From Micromonospora chokoriensis (lineage in GTDB: Bacteria; Actinomycetota; Actinomycetes; Mycobacteriales; Micromonosporaceae), in NCBI RefSeq assembly GCF_900091505.1, contig NZ_LT607409.1, positions 806,001 through 870,000 on the forward strand: a DNA stretch of 64,000 nucleotides, written 5' to 3'. Shown here piece after piece: positions 1,686 to 23,809 of the stretch (positions within the stretch are counted from its first letter, which is position 1; each line of letters starts with the position of its first letter). The notes beneath the pieces are model-generated. The model was not told the origin of the DNA. It saw nothing but the letters and a program-made list of their open reading frames with translations, and made no database searches. A program made the position numbers and the translations under genes.

Positions 1686-2984
1686 TCAGCGCCAACCCAC
1701 GTCGATCCGGGCGCCGCGCTCGTCGAAGAAGTGCAGCGCGTCCATCCGGACCGAGACGGCGAGCGGGTGACCGGCGCTGACCGCCGGATACGGCGCGAGC
1801 CGCACCGCCAACTCCGCCGGGCGACGGTGGTGCCGGCCCGGGTCGGGGAGCACGCTGGTCTGGGCGTCACCAACGGCGGGTGCCGGCGACTCCACCGGCT
1901 TGCCGGTGAGCCGCTGCATCACCGATCCGAACCGGCGCAGACCACGCTGGCCGACCGGCGGCGGGTCGAGCGATGTGCCCATCTCGTCGACCATGATCGC
2001 GGTCGCGCCGATGTCGAGGAACGCCAACGACTCGTGCCCGTGGTGCTCCAGGTAGCGGATCCGCCCCCGCAGCACGTCGCCAGGGCTGTCCGGGGAGACC
2101 GGAGTGAGCGCCTCGGCCCGCATACCGACCACGATCCGCTCACCGTGGTAGTGCGCCACCGCCCTGCTGCGGATGTCGTTCCACGGCAGGTAGAGCGACT
2201 GCTCACCGAGGTTCAGCGTGACGTACCGGTCGAGGTGGACGTAGACCGACGCCTCCAACAGGTTCATCCGCGGGCTGCCCAGGAAGGCGGCCACGTAGAG
2301 CGTCGCCGGCCGCCCGTACACCTGGGTGGGTGTGCCCACGTCCTGGAGCACGCCACGGCGCATGATGGCCACCCGGTCGGCCATGGTGAGCGCCTCGGCC
2401 TGGTCGTGGGTGACGTAGACGGTGGTGACGCCCAGCTCCCGGGTCAGGCCCGAGATCTCCGCGCGCAGCTCGGCGCGGAGGCCGCTGTCCAGATTCGAGA
2501 GCGGCTCGTCCATCAGGAACAGACCGGGCCGCCGGACGATCGCCCGGCCCATCGCCACCCGCTGCCGTTGGCCGCCGGAGAGTTGCCCCGGCTTGCGGGC
2601 CAGCACGTCACCGATGCCCAGGGCGCTCGCCACGTCGCTGACCCGCTCGCCCCTCGGCTCCGGCTCGACCCCGGCCAGCCGCAGCGGAAAGGCGATGTTG
2701 TCACCGACGGTCATGTGCGGGTAGAGCGCGAAGTCCTGGAAGACCATGGCGATCTTGCGGTCCCGTGGGGGCAGGTCGTTCGCCAGTTCCCCGTCGAGCA
2801 TGACCGCGCCGTGGGTCGGGTCCTCCAACCCGGCGATCATCCGCAGCACCGTCGACTTGCCGCAGCCGGACGGCCCGAGGAGCACCATGAACTCGCCGTC
2901 GTTCACGTCGAGATTGATGCTGTCGACGGCCAGCGTGCCGTCCCTGAAGACCTTGCTGACATCCTTGAGCGTGACGGTGCTCAC
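1686..2984 (-). CDS. MalK/MsmK/UgpC-type sugar ABC transporter ATPase
   Basis: A 432-residue ATPase of the CUT1 sugar-importer class. The nucleotide domain has all motifs: Walker A GPSGCGKST near residue 38, Q-loop FQDFALYPHM, signature LSGGQRQRV near 140, Walker B LFLMDEPLSNLD and the switch VTHDQ. After residue 240 come the regulatory MalK/TOBE-type domains, which are longer than usual and contain a proline-rich stretch near 370-395. No permease or binding-protein gene is adjacent, so it may energise several sugar importers encoded elsewhere, as MsmK and MsiK do in other Gram-positives. The start is a GTG preceded by a G-rich site; the 120 bases upstream carry its own promoter region. Sugar specificity cannot be inferred. 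Confidence 0.9.
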   Translation of the reverse strand: MSTVTLKDVSKVFRDGTLAVDSINLDVNDGEFMVLLGPSGCGKSTVLRMIAGLEDPTHGAVMLDGELANDLPPRDRKIAMVFQDFALYPHMTVGDNIAFPLRLAGVEPEPRGERVSDVASALGIGDVLARKPGQLSGGQRQRVAMGRAIVRRPGLFLMDEPLSNLDSGLRAELRAEISGLTRELGVTTVYVTHDQAEALTMADRVAIMRRGVLQDVGTPTQVYGRPATLYVAAFLGSPRMNLLEASVYVHLDRYVTLNLGEQSLYLPWNDIRSRAVAHYHGERIVVGMRAEALTPVSPDSPGDVLRGRIRYLEHHGHESLAFLDIGATAIMVDEMGTSLDPPPVGQRGLRRFGSVMQRLTGKPVESPAPAVGDAQTSVLPDPGRHHRRPAELAVRLAPYPAVSAGHPLAVSVRMDALHFFDERGARIDVGWR

Positions 2985-3104
2985 CGTCGTCCCCCCCAGC
3001 TAGTCCCTGCCGACCCAGAGACTGTGACCAGGATCATTCGGTTCGCACATCGGGTAAACGTCTCATGTTTGGTTCATGACGCTGCTATTACACGACACAA
3101 GCGA

Positions 3105-5315
3105 TCAACAGGGCGAAGAGCGCCCGCTCGGCTCCCCCAGGAAAACCTGACGCACCACCCGTTCCGCCGCGTGCCCGTCGTCCAACGTGCAGAACCGGCT
3201 TCGGAAATGTTCGCGGGCCTTACTCGCGGCGTCCGAGCGCACCTCGCCGCTGCGGAACACATCGACCAGCTCAGCGAAGGTGGTGGCCACCGCGCCGGGC
3301 GGCTCGGCCGTCACGTCGAAGTAGACCCCCCGAGCCAACCGGTACGCCTCCCAGTCCGGGGCGTAGAGCACGATCGGCCGGTCGAGAACCGCGTAGTCGA
3401 ACATCGCCGACGAATAGTCGGTCACCAACACGTCGGCGACCAGATAGAGGTCCTCCACCCGCTGATGACCGCTGACGTCGCGAACCCGTTCCCAGTCCGC
3501 CGGCCGACCGGGACGCCGCTCCCGATCGTGGAAGTAGTGGCTGCGCATCAGCAGCCGACCGGAGTCACCCAACGCCCGCACGAACCGGTCCGGGTCGAAC
3601 GGCGGCCGGTAGCCGGGGAGGTGTTCACGGTGCGTCGGGGCGTACAGCACGACCTGCTCGTCGGGCCCGACGCCGAACTCGGCGCGCAGTCGGCGCACCT
3701 CGTCCGGGCCGGCCGTGACCAGGCGGTCGTTGCGGGGGTAGCCCACCTCCAACGTCGTGTACGTGGCCGGGTACGCCCGGTCCCACATCTGCGTGGAGAA
3801 GCTGTTCGCGCTGACGCTGTAGTCCCACCGGTCCACCCGGCGCAGCAGCCCGGCGAAGTCCATCCGGCCCGCGCCGATCGGGTAGCGCTGCTGGTCCAGG
3901 CCCATCACCTTGACCGGGGTGCCGTGGTGGGTCTGCACGTGCACCTGCTCGGGCCGCTTGCGCACGAAATCCGGGAAGTTGACGTTGTTGACCAGCCACC
4001 GGGCGCGGGCGAGCACCCGGTAGTACGCCGGGGTGCCGGCAACCACGTACTCCACCCCGGCCGGCACGGTATCCACCCGGTCCCGGCGCACGATCCACAC
4101 CCCGCGCACCCCGGGCGCCAACCGGCGGGCGACCTCGTAGATCGCCGCCGGGTTGCAGGAGTATCCGCGGTACCAGTACGCGGCGTACACCGCGAGCGTC
4201 GGGTCGACCGGCCGACGCAACTCGGCCCGGTAGTACTCACGCAGCAGCCCGTCGCGGGTCAGCCGGGCGCCGCGCCGCGCGACCGGGCCGACCCGCCGGC
4301 GGGCGGTTCGGGCCTGCCTGCGGGCGACGTCGCGGGCCCGGCCGGCGGTCCGCAACGCGCTGAACGTGCGCCAACGGCCGGAGGCGACCAGCCGGTGCTT
4401 GAGCCCCTCCACCCCGCCCGGCACCGGATAGCCGCCGGGCGGCAGCCACCGATCGTAGTCGGCGGTGATCTGCGCGAAGAACGTCTGCCGCAGCTCCGGG
4501 GCGATCCGCTGACCGTTGCCGAGCACCGTCAGGTAGTGCCAGATCATCCGCTCGAAGACCGCCGGCCGCAGGGCGTCCGTCGCCGGCCCCCACTCGTCCA
4601 TCAGGTGGAAGACCCGATGCCACTGTGGGAAGACCTCGAAATGGCGGTCACCGCGGGTCCGGGTGATCGCGCCGGCGCGGCGTTGCCGGTAGTTGACGCA
4701 CACCCGGTCGAGTACGCCGATCCGCTGCGCCGCCATCAGCACCGGATAGCTGAACGAGACGTCCTCGTACCAGCCGGGGGCGAAACGCAGGCCCAGGTCG
4801 ACCAGGAACTCCCGGCGCACCAGGCGGTTCCACGCGGTGTGCAGCAGGTGCATCGCCTCCGGCCGGTCCCGCAGCCGGAAGGTCTCCGGGCCGGGCGACT
4901 CCGGGAACACCTCGGCCATCGCGCTACGGGTGGCGGTGTCGTTCCAGTGGGTGCGCACGTGGTCGACGAGCAGCACGTCCGGGCGGGTCGCCCGCAACCG
5001 CTCGGCGACCTCAGTCAGACACTCCGGGGTCAGCCAGTCGTCGCCGTCGAGGAACCACACGTACTCGCCGGCGGCCCGGTCCAACCCGATGTTGCGGGCC
5101 GGACCGAGGCCGACGTTCTCCGGCAGCCGAACCGAACGGACCCGCCGGTCGCGGGCCGCGTACTCGTCGATGATGTCGCCGCCGGCGTCCGGCGAGCAGT
5201 CGTCGACGGCGATCACCTCGATGTCCGTCTCCGGCTGGCCGAGGACGGAGTCCAGGCACTCACGCAGGTATCCCTGCACGCGGAAGGCCGGCACCACGAA
5301 GCTGATCAGGGTCAT
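3105..5315 (-). CDS. GT2 glycosyltransferase fused to TagF-like CDP-glycerol/polyol glycerophosphotransferase
   Basis: A 736-residue bifunctional enzyme of wall-polymer synthesis. Residues 1 to about 230 form a GT2 domain, with EVIAVDDCSPDAGG for nucleotide-sugar binding and FLDGDDWL as the DXD-type metal site. After a basic linker, about residues 370-730 form a TagF/TarF polymerase domain, with the HHGTPVKVMG stretch and VTDYSSAMFD, which contribute the catalytic and CDP-binding residues in that family. It probably adds sugar and polyol-phosphate units to a lipid-linked polymer at the inner membrane face. It is the last gene of an operon (TagG-like, TagH-like, DUF5941, this gene), 15 bases after the DUF5941 stop. 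Whether the donor is CDP-glycerol or CDP-ribitol cannot be told. Confidence 0.88.
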   Translation of the reverse strand: MTLISFVVPAFRVQGYLRECLDSVLGQPETDIEVIAVDDCSPDAGGDIIDEYAARDRRVRSVRLPENVGLGPARNIGLDRAAGEYVWFLDGDDWLTPECLTEVAERLRATRPDVLLVDHVRTHWNDTATRSAMAEVFPESPGPETFRLRDRPEAMHLLHTAWNRLVRREFLVDLGLRFAPGWYEDVSFSYPVLMAAQRIGVLDRVCVNYRQRRAGAITRTRGDRHFEVFPQWHRVFHLMDEWGPATDALRPAVFERMIWHYLTVLGNGQRIAPELRQTFFAQITADYDRWLPPGGYPVPGGVEGLKHRLVASGRWRTFSALRTAGRARDVARRQARTARRRVGPVARRGARLTRDGLLREYYRAELRRPVDPTLAVYAAYWYRGYSCNPAAIYEVARRLAPGVRGVWIVRRDRVDTVPAGVEYVVAGTPAYYRVLARARWLVNNVNFPDFVRKRPEQVHVQTHHGTPVKVMGLDQQRYPIGAGRMDFAGLLRRVDRWDYSVSANSFSTQMWDRAYPATYTTLEVGYPRNDRLVTAGPDEVRRLRAEFGVGPDEQVVLYAPTHREHLPGYRPPFDPDRFVRALGDSGRLLMRSHYFHDRERRPGRPADWERVRDVSGHQRVEDLYLVADVLVTDYSSAMFDYAVLDRPIVLYAPDWEAYRLARGVYFDVTAEPPGAVATTFAELVDVFRSGEVRSDAASKAREHFRSRFCTLDDGHAAERVVRQVFLGEPSGRSSPC

Positions 5316-21298: not shown

Positions 21299-22117
21299 CT
21301 ACACCGACTGCCGGTCGTGCTTCTGGTGCGGCGCGGCGACCTCGCGGACGGCCTCGGCAACCGCTCGGAAGTCCTTCTTGAGGATTGCGCCGTGGTTGCT
21401 GGTGACCTTCGCCGCGATGCGGATGTGCGGGTTGCGGGCGATGGTCGTGTCGAGATCGGCACGGATTTTCTCCTGCTCGTCGCCCCGGCTGCCCAGCGAC
21501 GCCCCGGAGGCGACCACGTACCGCACCGGAACGGCGATGGCGTCGAGCACCGGGCCCAGCTCGCTCGCACGGGAGAGCCTGCCCAGCTCGATGTTGCTGT
21601 TCGCCATCTGTTCGGCGTTCATCCGTGGGGTCAGACCGGTCGGGCGTAGCAGCGGCATGAACAGGTTCAGCCGCCGGAACAGTTTCCTGATCCGCTGCTC
21701 TATCGCCTCGTCGAGCCAGTCGGATGGGAAAGCGCCGTCGACCAGGACCACCCCGAGCGCCCGCTCCGGGTTCCGGTTGGCCCAGTGCGCGCCGACGACC
21801 GCCCCGTACGACCAGCCCACCACCATCGCCTGGTCGACGCCCCGGGCTGCGAGGACGGCGTCGACATCCCGCACGGCGGCCTCGAACGAGTAGTCTGCCG
21901 AGCGTTTCGACTTCCTGCCGCGGGCCCGCTCGTCGTAGCTGATGTGCCGGAAATCTGCGCCCAGTTCGGCGATGACCCGCCGCCAGTAGCCCTGGGTGGC
22001 GAACTGGCCGTTGAGGTAGATCACGGGGATTCCGGGACCGCCGGTGTCGGTGACGGCCAGGGCCGTGTCGTCGACCGGCACCATGCCGGTCCAGGTCGAG
22101 CTGGTGGAGATGGTCAT
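21299..22117 (-). CDS. Alpha/beta hydrolase
   Basis: A 272-residue alpha/beta-hydrolase. The oxyanion-side stretch PVIYLNGQFATQGYWR is near residue 33, the nucleophile elbow is GWSYGAVVG near 100, and a C-terminal histidine in TSNHGAILKKD completes the triad. It resembles the broad esterase/haloperoxidase-like group; the substrate is unknown. ATG 22115-22117 has AGGAG six bases upstream. It is 35 bases downstream of the DUF4097 gene and probably shares its transcript and control by the divergent HTH regulator. Confidence 0.88.
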   Translation of the reverse strand: MTISTSSTWTGMVPVDDTALAVTDTGGPGIPVIYLNGQFATQGYWRRVIAELGADFRHISYDERARGRKSKRSADYSFEAAVRDVDAVLAARGVDQAMVVGWSYGAVVGAHWANRNPERALGVVLVDGAFPSDWLDEAIEQRIRKLFRRLNLFMPLLRPTGLTPRMNAEQMANSNIELGRLSRASELGPVLDAIAVPVRYVVASGASLGSRGDEQEKIRADLDTTIARNPHIRIAAKVTSNHGAILKKDFRAVAEAVREVAAPHQKHDRQSV

Positions 22118-22152
22118 GTCGTACTCCTGTCGCGTTGGGGGTTCGATCGAGC

Positions 22153-22818
22153 TCAGCGGCTGCGGGCGGTGATGTCGCCGTACGAGGTGGTAGCCCGGAT
22201 GTCGAGTGTGGTGCTCCCGTCGTTCCTGAGGGAGTTGGTGATCCGGCCGGAGCCGGTGCCCCCGTCCAGGGCGGCCGACACACCGGCGGCGGCGGTGACC
22301 GAGATGTCGCCGGACTGAGTACGCAGCACGACGGTGCCGTGCACGGCTTCGGTGATCCGGATGTCGCCCCGTGCGGTGCTGATCTCGGCGGGTCCGTTGA
22401 GCCGGCCGATCTCGACGTCGCCGTCGATCGCGGTGAGGCGGACGCTCGCCGCCTCATCGATCTTGATCTGGCGGTACGCGCCGTCGAAGGTGATGTCGGC
22501 GAGGCGTCCGACGCTACGAAGCTCGGCGGCGGCGGACGTGGCCTGGATGCGGGAGTCGGCGGGCAGCCGGACGGTGACCTGCAGGGATCCGGACGGGCCG
22601 AGGAGGGCGTTGCCGGGCGTCGCGGCCGTGATCCTCAGGACGCCGTCGGCGTACGTGACGGTGGTCCGCTCAGCGGCCCTGCTGTCACGGTTCTTGGCGG
22701 GGTCGGTGGGCAGCACCTCGACGGTGGTGTCGGAGCGGTCGGCGGCGATGACCTGAACGCGCCCGGCGGGGATGTCCAGGACGGCGGAGATCGGGGTGGG
22801 GGTGTCGAAGGTCTTCAT
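22153..22818 (-). CDS. DUF4097 beta-strand-repeat protein
   Basis: A 221-residue protein made of repeating short beta strands of the DUF4097/adhesin-like type: alternating DV/DI-x-G turns (GRLADITFDG, AIDGDVEIGRLNG, ARGDIRITEAVHG, QSGDISVTAAAG, TSYGDITARS), which predict a right-handed beta-helix or solenoid. There is no signal peptide or membrane segment, so it is likely cytosolic. Related proteins occur next to regulators in actinobacteria, but no function is established. It starts the two-gene unit with the hydrolase and faces a divergent HTH regulator across a box-rich spacer. Confidence 0.86.
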   Translation of the reverse strand: MKTFDTPTPISAVLDIPAGRVQVIAADRSDTTVEVLPTDPAKNRDSRAAERTTVTYADGVLRITAATPGNALLGPSGSLQVTVRLPADSRIQATSAAAELRSVGRLADITFDGAYRQIKIDEAASVRLTAIDGDVEIGRLNGPAEISTARGDIRITEAVHGTVVLRTQSGDISVTAAAGVSAALDGGTGSGRITNSLRNDGSTTLDIRATTSYGDITARSR

Positions 22819-22864
22819 CGGGCTCTCCCGTGTTGGCGCGTCGTTTCTGATGCTGGAAACGCTA

Positions 22865-23012
22865 CGTTGCTTTCCATTTCAGGGCAACAAGCTTGTTGCA
22901 TTCTCATGTCAAACATCCAGTTCAGAGCACCTAAATCGTTGCGTCGACCTGCCGTCTAATGCAACGACGACGCCTCACCTTGTTGCAATGGATGAGAAGT
23001 TAACGCTATGGT
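22865..23012. promoter_or_regulatory. Divergent promoter/operator region with GTTGC/GCAAC boxes
   Basis: The 238-base spacer between the DUF4097 gene and its divergent regulator is unusually AT-rich for this genome and carries repeated boxes. There is a perfect 16-bp palindrome GCAACAAGCTTGTTGC at 22884-22899, an inverted CGTTGC/GCAACG pair at 22937-22942 and 22961-22966, and CTTGTTGCA both at 22892-22900 and at 22979-22987. TTGCAA (22983-22988) and TATGGT (23007-23012), 18 bases apart, could be the regulator's promoter. On the other strand TTGCCC and TAGCGT, 17 bases apart and overlapping the palindrome, could serve the DUF4097 gene. Autoregulation by the encoded HTH protein is the natural inference. 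Confidence 0.65.
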
Positions 23013-23056
23013 GGGGGCGTCTTGGACCGCCTGAAGGAGCACCGAGGGAGATCGCG

Positions 23057-23809
23057 ATGCCGGGAGGCAGGCTCAGCCAGCAGGAACGCCAGCAGATCGC
23101 GCTGGGGCTGGGCGACAGCCTCCCCTACGCGGAGATAGCGCGGCGGATCAACCGTCCCACCTCGACGGTCACGCGGGAGGTCATGCGCAACGGCGGCCCC
23201 ACCGCGTACCGCGCCGATCTGGCCCACCGCGCCACCGAACGCCGCGCCCACCGGCGCAGGCAGGTCTCCGCCGGTGCGGAGTCGGTTCTCCAACCGCGTG
23301 GACGGGACGCCGAGGCGGTTGCCGAATACGAGGAAACCTTCACCACAGTCCTCATGGCGTCGGGCCTGACCAAGATGGCGGCCCGCGTGCTGACCTGCCT
23401 GTACACCACCGACGCGGGCAGCCTCACCGCCTCCCAGCTCGCCCAGCGGCTCCAGGTCAGCCCGGCGTCGATCTCCAAAGCGATCACGTTCCTGGAAGGC
23501 CAGAGCCTGGTCCGCCGGGAACGCGACGAACGTCGCCGCGACCGCTACCTCGTCGACGACGAGCTCTTCTACCAGGCCACCATCACCAGCGCCCGCGCCA
23601 ACGACCAGCTCGTGGAGACAGCGCGGCGGGGCGTCGCCCTGCTCGGCCCGCACACCCCCGCCGCGGCCCGCCTGGAGAACATCGCCCGCTTCCTCGACTT
23701 CATCAGCGAGAGCATGGTCCGCGCCGCCGAACAGGCCCGCGAGATCCTCCACACCAGAGCGGAGAGGACAACCGGCGACGCTGCCCGACCACGTCCCGGC
23801 CAGGGATGA
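23057..23809 (+). CDS. MarR/GbsR-like regulator with IS30-transposase-type N-terminal HTH
   Basis: A 250-residue regulator with two DNA-binding modules. Residues 1 to about 70 (GRLSQQERQQIALGL, then IARRINRPTSTVTREVMRNGG and a YRADLAHRATERRAHRRR tail) match the N-terminal HTH region of IS30-family transposases. Residues about 95-190 form a MarR/GbsR-type winged helix (SQLAQRLQVSPASISKAITFLEGQSLVRRERDERRRDRY). No DDE catalytic domain is present, so it is a regulator, not a transposase. ATG 23057 has GAGGGAG six bases upstream; the longer frame from 22772 is rejected. It likely controls the divergent DUF4097-hydrolase unit and itself. Confidence 0.85.
   Translation: MPGGRLSQQERQQIALGLGDSLPYAEIARRINRPTSTVTREVMRNGGPTAYRADLAHRATERRAHRRRQVSAGAESVLQPRGRDAEAVAEYEETFTTVLMASGLTKMAARVLTCLYTTDAGSLTASQLAQRLQVSPASISKAITFLEGQSLVRRERDERRRDRYLVDDELFYQATITSARANDQLVETARRGVALLGPHTPAAARLENIARFLDFISESMVRAAEQAREILHTRAERTTGDAARPRPGQG

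Follow-up and report, generated by a model that had tools for sequence, protein, structure and literature searches.

MarR repressors (PF01047; structures 4nb5 and 1ku9) are built on a winged-helix body with flanking helices, and their genes stand beside a divergent gene with which they have a spacer in common. The locus described here, which lies in a window of 64 kb (the whole stretch of DNA that was analysed) within a 6.9 Mb single-contig genome, resembles them in both respects. Unlike them, however, its regulator carries an additional HTH_38 domain at the N-terminus, and its spacer holds a multi-box array, whereas the MarR type has a single short palindrome. The transposases of the IS30 family offer a second point of comparison, since they share with the regulator an N-terminal helix-turn-helix (HTH) of about 50 aa (37.5-45.8% identity in the rows sampled), although the regulator is without a catalytic domain among the Pfam matches listed. 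The second HTH of IS30 binds the IS30 terminal repeats. Finally, the Toastrack (DUF4097) stress operons of the LiaG type also place a DUF4097 gene beside a DNA-binding regulator (PMC11237479). Among the regulators named for such operons in that paper are two-component, LytTR, PadR-like, GntR-HTH and RHH proteins, and the word 'MarR' is absent from its main text. A fusion of HTH_38 to a MarR body was likewise not found among the literature titles and abstract openings listed, which lay mostly outside subscription journals.

We consider it probable, from the comparative sequence evidence below, that this protein is a two-headed local repressor of the MarR family, in which HTH_38 would read an array of NTTGC boxes and shut off both divergent promoters until the protein is released. 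Its own gene and its neighbour are most likely the genes repressed, with the divergent DUF4097 gene as its likely main target. Under this proposal, the recognition helix of HTH_38 would contact the boxes, while the MarR body would dimerise, presumably adding contacts and ligand sensing. We infer repression (rather than activation), the promoters, the dimer, the ligand and a MarR contact with TGAA/TTCA.

Genes of the locus and domains of the regulator

The interval 22865-23809 had been given by the sequence-only reading as one feature; it in fact comprises spacer (22865 on) followed by the regulator gene (23057-23809, forward strand), which runs from an ATG at 23057 to a stop at 23809 and encodes 250 aa. 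On inspection of the sequence, a Shine-Dalgarno-like GAGGGAG lies ahead of this ATG at 23044-23050. The divergent DUF4097 (Toastrack) gene occupies 22153-22818 on the reverse strand (221 aa; Pfam PF13349, E 7.5e-12), and an alpha/beta hydrolase gene lies beyond it on the same strand (21299-22117; Pfam Abhydrolase_1, E 3.1e-15). The two are presumably co-transcribed.

Within the regulator, HTH_38 spans residues 5-45 (Pfam PF13936, E 1.7e-14, 53.7 bits against a cut-off of 27) and is followed by a helix at 47-70, a linker at about 71-84 and a MarR body at about 85-239, in which the winged-helix domain covers residues 108-158 (Pfam PF01047, E 2.2e-11, 43.9 bits against a cut-off of 24.6). An AlphaFold2 model of the single chain, built from 60 sequences, gives the same layout, with a three-helix HTH at 8-44, a long helix at 47-70 and a MarR-type body at 85-239. 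Mean pLDDT in this model is 83.3, with blocks within residues 81-230 at 82-98 and residues 66-80 under 50. The modelled body has the MarR topology of helices, winged helix and two long C-terminal helices. In a fold comparison confined to the body (residues 87-229, which places the HTH fold outside its scope), the matches included 4nb5 (Z 14.6, 144 residues, rmsd 2.2) and, among the best, 1ku9 (Z 12.6, 148 residues, rmsd 3.7). The latter (MJ223) we take to be linked to GbsR. The NCBIfam model CudC, which is presumably of GbsR type, scores the regulator at 16 bits, far under its cut-off of 218, and the GbsR label for the body would rest on the fold.

The sequence-only reading had described an IS30-type HTH at the N-terminus, a MarR-type winged helix after it and no catalytic domain behind the HTH, and this architecture was borne out on each point. 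The first agrees with the HTH_38 match and with IS30-annotated plasmid rows that align to the N-terminus, and the second with the Pfam match and the fold matches of the body. As to the third, a transposase catalytic family is absent among the best 25 of 32 Pfam matches of the regulator, and the full-length IS30 model (NCBIfam transpos_IS30) reaches 13.9 bits against a cut-off of 80, over residues 36-69 only.

The box array of the divergent spacer

The two start codons enclose six GTTGC/GCAAC boxes. In the whole 64 kb there are 141 such pentamers, and six per 238 bp are reached only for stretches starting at 22749-22866; we reject chance as an explanation of this cluster. Conservation was assessed in 98 non-redundant aligned upstream regions, obtained from 110 loci by removing duplicates. 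Box A (GTTGC, 22866-22870, forward strand), contained in TACGTTGCTTTCC, is GTTGC in 94 of the 98, and box B (GCAAC, 22884-22888, reverse) is GCAAC in 69, while box C (GTTGC, 22895-22899, forward) is kept in 84. Boxes D (CGTTGC, 22938-22942, forward; family consensus GTTGCAACG) and E (GCAACG, 22961-22965, reverse) are the left and right halves of an inverted pair; D is GTTGC in 83 of 98 loci and ATTGC in 13, and E is GCAAC in 93. Box F (GTTGC, 22982-22986, forward; family consensus CATTGCAATGG) is divided between ATTGC (49/98) and GTTGC (45/98). A seventh, degenerate box G follows at 22999-23012 (forward), which here reads GTTAACGCTATGGT against a family consensus of GTGAACGCTATGGT, or, as it is also given, GTTAACGCTATGG against GTGAACGCTATGG. 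The GCTAT of box G lies 23 bp past box F, the same step as from D to E, and D-E and F-G can thus be described as two alike units with 23 bp within a unit and 44 bp between units.

Across the aligned regions, the sequence between the boxes drifts while the boxes stay. Box conservation in orthologous loci was the point on which the sequence-only reading had made its proposal depend, and the proposal withstood this check: five boxes are exact in 69-94 of the 98 regions and F in 45. Its inverted CGTTGC pair is present as boxes D and E, and the two copies of CTTGTTGCA that it had noted occur at C and F. It had also drawn attention to a 16-bp palindrome, GCAACAAGCTTGTTGC, at 22884-22899 (boxes B and C). 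The palindrome is perfect in this genome, but its inner bases vary across the aligned loci; it is not kept as a unit, and we rejected it as an operator unit.

The array is dense throughout the main family (125 loci), with 5.73 GTTGC/GCAAC per locus compared to 0.87 in resampled sequence. Its spacings, counted besides the self-overlap of TTGCAA, peak at 22-23 bp for inverted and at 20-21 and 43-45 bp for direct pairs, where the maxima in shuffles were 7 and 5 or less. The same spacings are among the highest peaks in each of two thinned sets, one of 21 main-family loci and one of 73 paralogs.

Putative promoters could be placed by eye in both directions. For the DUF4097 gene, a TTGCCC at 22887-22882 (reverse strand) would serve as -35 and overlaps box B, and a TAGCGT at 22859-22864, 17 bp away and adjoining box A, would serve as -10. 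For the regulator, the candidate -35 is TTGCAA at 22983-22988 (forward), overlapping box F, and the candidate -10 is TATGGT at 23007-23012, 18 bp from it and within box G. A strict sigma-70 consensus scan found neither promoter. The cores of B and F do overlap both by-eye hexamers, in keeping with the earlier suggestion of a box over a candidate -35 in each direction. TTGCCC and TTGCAA coincide with box cores, and a regulator bound to A, B and C and to the two inverted pairs, D-E and F-G, which stand 44 bp from each other, would therefore cover the -35 hexamer of each divergent promoter. The DUF4097 gene, probably with the hydrolase gene, and the regulator itself would then be off until release by a ligand or signal. 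Since DUF4097/Toastrack proteins have been tied to membrane-stress systems (PMC11237479), we would guess that this ligand is membrane-active or antibiotic-like.

Residue 35 and the reader of the boxes

The recognition helix of HTH_38 runs R33-P-T-S-T-V-T-R-E41, with Thr at residue 35, and across the family this residue tracks the first base of NTTGC. The comparison covered 254 upstream loci after de-duplication, 236 of them with the fused regulator and 18 of them HTH_38-free. Where residue 35 is Thr, the first box, which is box A in this genome, begins with G in 186 of 202 loci, 16 being without a match and no other base occurring, although these rows are kin and about 125 of the 202 belong to one main family. 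Ala35 (n=16) goes with A in 12 loci, T in one and G in one, with two lacking the pattern. Leu35 goes with C in 4/4, Ile35 (n=6) with C in four and T in two, and the single Gly35 locus with A. In all seven paralogs with Arg35 (L159, L165, L232, L240, L256, L261 and L275) the pattern is absent. Box densities follow the same division: GTTGC occurs 4.79 times per 250 bp in 200 loci with RPT and 0.31 times in 16 with RPA, and the latter carry 5.31 ATTGC per 250 bp. The recognition helix of the MarR domain, by comparison, retains K141 in most Thr, Ile and Leu rows and F/Y145 in most rows with Thr or Ala. Because residue 35 tracks the base while 141 and 145 fail to do so across all groups, HTH_38 is the likely reader, and the pattern points to its reading of the boxes as the most likely arrangement.

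Phylogeny limits how far this pattern can be pressed. In a body tree of 94 thinned rows, about four changes are seen at residue 35, and two independent pairs fall on starred branches; this is too few for a sign test to reach significance, so the code is statistically unestablished. Two or more GTTGC boxes were found in 69 of 72 Thr rows compared to 4 of 22 others in this set. With a stricter label (GTTGC outnumbering ATTGC plus CTTGC), the counts are 39 of 72 and 2 of 22, the lower Thr figure reflecting the many Thr paralogs in which GTTGC and ATTGC occur together; under that label the independent pairs are almost even, with averages of 0.5 in agreement and 0.3 in opposition. Other residues also vary by group, namely 25 and 29 in Ile/Leu rows, 28, 39 and 141 in Ala rows and 144-145 in Ile/Leu rows. 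Moreover, the reverse half of NTTGCAAN boxes departs from the residue-35 pattern. Every non-Thr row with such boxes carries A there; the Thr rows show A 217 times, G 104 times and C once. This apparent palindrome may be read asymmetrically, or that side may be read by something besides residue 35.

Relatives of the MarR body that are without HTH_38 provide a second line of comparison. These Actinomycetes proteins (e.g. L176-L180) are 28-40% identical to the regulator over the body and have in common with it the recognition helix SPA-x-(I/V)-S, yet they lack both HTH_38 and GTTGC-type boxes. From 20 such loci (L176-L195), 18 were readable, L184 and L190 being without a match. Within 300 bp upstream, GTTGC/GCAAC was found in 0/18, where resampled sequence gives 0.6 per locus. 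Instead, a loose TTCACAAATTTGTGAA-like palindrome stands ahead of the gene in 12 of the 18, and of the 236 fused loci, 2 contain 8-mer half-sites of this pattern. The gene starts of this HTH_38-free set were chosen by script and three (L185, L186 and L189) look misplaced, so that their upstream stretches may be partly coding. In a body tree of 26 fused and 18 unfused rows, from which near-identical rows were dropped and L234, L172 and L216 were excluded as long branches, the fused forms fall on one side of a single branch (SH-aLRT 99, one change), which makes a single fusion possible.

It could still be the MarR winged helix that reads the NTTGC boxes, with HTH_38 merely aiding oligomerisation or gripping DNA non-specifically. 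MarR proteins bind palindromes about the size of the inverted box pairs, such pairs exist in the array, and the MarR helix itself varies by group at residue 141 (Ala rows) and residues 144-145 (Ile/Leu rows). We nonetheless think this unlikely, given that the HTH_38-free relatives lack such boxes and mostly have another palindrome, that residue 35 tracks the base across groups where MarR 141 and 145 do not, and that conservation is higher in the HTH_38 part (34 invariant columns in residues 1-75, compared to 30 in 85-235).

Some non-palindromic boxes extend as TTGC-R-TTCA (TGAAYGCAA on the other strand). The number per locus is 1.75 for the Ala group, 1.0 for Ile/Leu, 0.42 for Thr paralogs and 0.18 for the main family, compared to 0.01-0.02 in resampled sequence, and TTCAC/GTGAA is a half-site that also occurs in the HTH_38-free relatives. 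A composite site, in which the MarR head would sit on TTCA/TGAA next to a box, fits these observations. We treat it as a lead, since TTCAC/GTGAA alone shows just a mild enrichment in the main family (1.0 compared to 0.69, maximum 0.78). The proposal of the sequence-only reading that two modules in one chain might read different half-sites gains comparative support to this extent: the boxes go with HTH_38, and relatives without it mostly have another palindrome.

More broadly, we tentatively entertain the possibility that two-headed repressors of actinomycetes descend from one IS30-HTH/MarR fusion, that their operators passed from a TTCACAAATTTGTGAA-type palindrome to arrays of NTTGC plus TTCA/TGAA, and that residue 35 sets a one-base code. 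Paralogs would then turn orthogonal by single changes at residue 35 (Thr with G, Ala with A, Leu with C). If this were true, targets could be assigned from sequence for a large group of regulators, paralogs within one cell could be distinguished by one residue and one base, and a bacterial transposase-type DNA-binding domain would act as a specificity module atop a MarR sensor.

Neighbours, ancestry and spread

In the genome-contig set (best 80 of 506 relatives), 71 loci have DUF4097 as their divergent neighbour (in L091 it is matched over residues 1-61 only), and the hydrolase lies within 1.3 kb on the divergent side in 39. Nine of the 80 have no adjacent DUF4097: L071 and L105 are cut by contig ends, the spacer of L097 contains an N-run, and 3-5 boxes are kept in the other six (L045, L050, L052, L057, L059 and L099). 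The distant paralogs (L143-L175, 38-63% identity) mostly face other genes, such as those for an ABC ATPase (L147), a P450 (L163) and beta-lactamase-family hydrolases (L148, L152, L161 and L173), and arrays are present there too, in some of which the box is ATTGC or CTTGC. For three of ten divergent proteins tested (L149, L167 and L144) a Pfam family was not found; by tblastn, the divergent gene of L144 matches DUF4097 at 43%. Since arrays persist without DUF4097 and over other divergent genes, the boxes follow the regulator rather than DUF4097.

The same evidence bears on the view that the boxes belong to promoters or to another factor and that the regulator binds elsewhere. Boxes B and F do overlap -35-like hexamers, which would be kept on their own account if they act as a -35. 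However, A, C, D and E lie outside these hexamers, and their conservation (83-94/98) matches or exceeds that of B and F, arrays accompany the regulator family over several different divergent genes, and the base of the box is associated with residue 35. We regard this view as improbable.

Taking the regulator as the factor that binds the array, its range looks local, since a whole-operator model found a single site in its own genome, namely this stretch, within which it also gave two weak echoes on the reverse strand; a scan of this kind would miss single boxes elsewhere. In L031 and L106, the regulator start is followed, about 3.2-4.5 kb downstream, by another DUF4097 match, a more distant one at 42% identity.

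Shared ancestry of HTH_38 in the regulator and the HTH of IS30 is clear from the sequence comparison. IS30-annotated rows among 40 sampled plasmid records align to residues 2-54 (E 7e-4 to 9e-2), and the recognition helices read RPTSTVTRE in the regulator and RSPSTISRE in E. coli IS30. A second HTH-like stretch of E. coli IS30, HLTLSEREEI...NRSPSTISREVQRNRG, aligns with RLSQQERQQI...NRPTSTVTREVMRNGG of the regulator. A domesticated transposase domain, which would imply descent from a transposase, is plausible and less clear than the shared ancestry. We also considered a second IS30-type protein in the same genome as a source and rejected it: the other two HTH_38 hits are otherwise placed, one being a response-regulator-like HTH and the other a frame with a TetR-like start (frames read by eye). 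Relatives were absent from the phage collection at E 0.01.

The regulator is found at E 1e-20 or better in 63 of 121 genomes of the genus, its own included. Eight genus genomes without the three-gene cassette (21299-23809) keep the order serC-like, DUF3071, LigT (loci such as L284 and L280), with only about 180 bp between DUF3071 and LigT in L284. Genome G032 has two copies of the regulator, one about 79 kb from its DUF3071 gene and the other about 3 Mb away. Being patchy in the genus, with copies at other sites and also on a plasmid, the DUF4097-regulator pair seems to travel. That HTH_38 still serves mobility, with the boxes as relic transposon end repeats by which the cassette moves, is very improbable: homology to the IS30 transposase domain and the patchy occurrence of the cassette at different sites would fit, but a catalytic domain is absent among the Pfam matches listed and the boxes lie inside the cassette, between the divergent genes and away from its ends.

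The plasmid copy is carried by a Streptomyces linear plasmid (L291), where the DUF4097-regulator pair at 2098-3783 has six box matches and lies beside replication genes. In one actinomycete family (f18), 80 of 150 genomes have a match to the HTH, a count that refers to the HTH only, and HTH_38 is expanded in this family (G512 and others), with up to nine matches in one genome.
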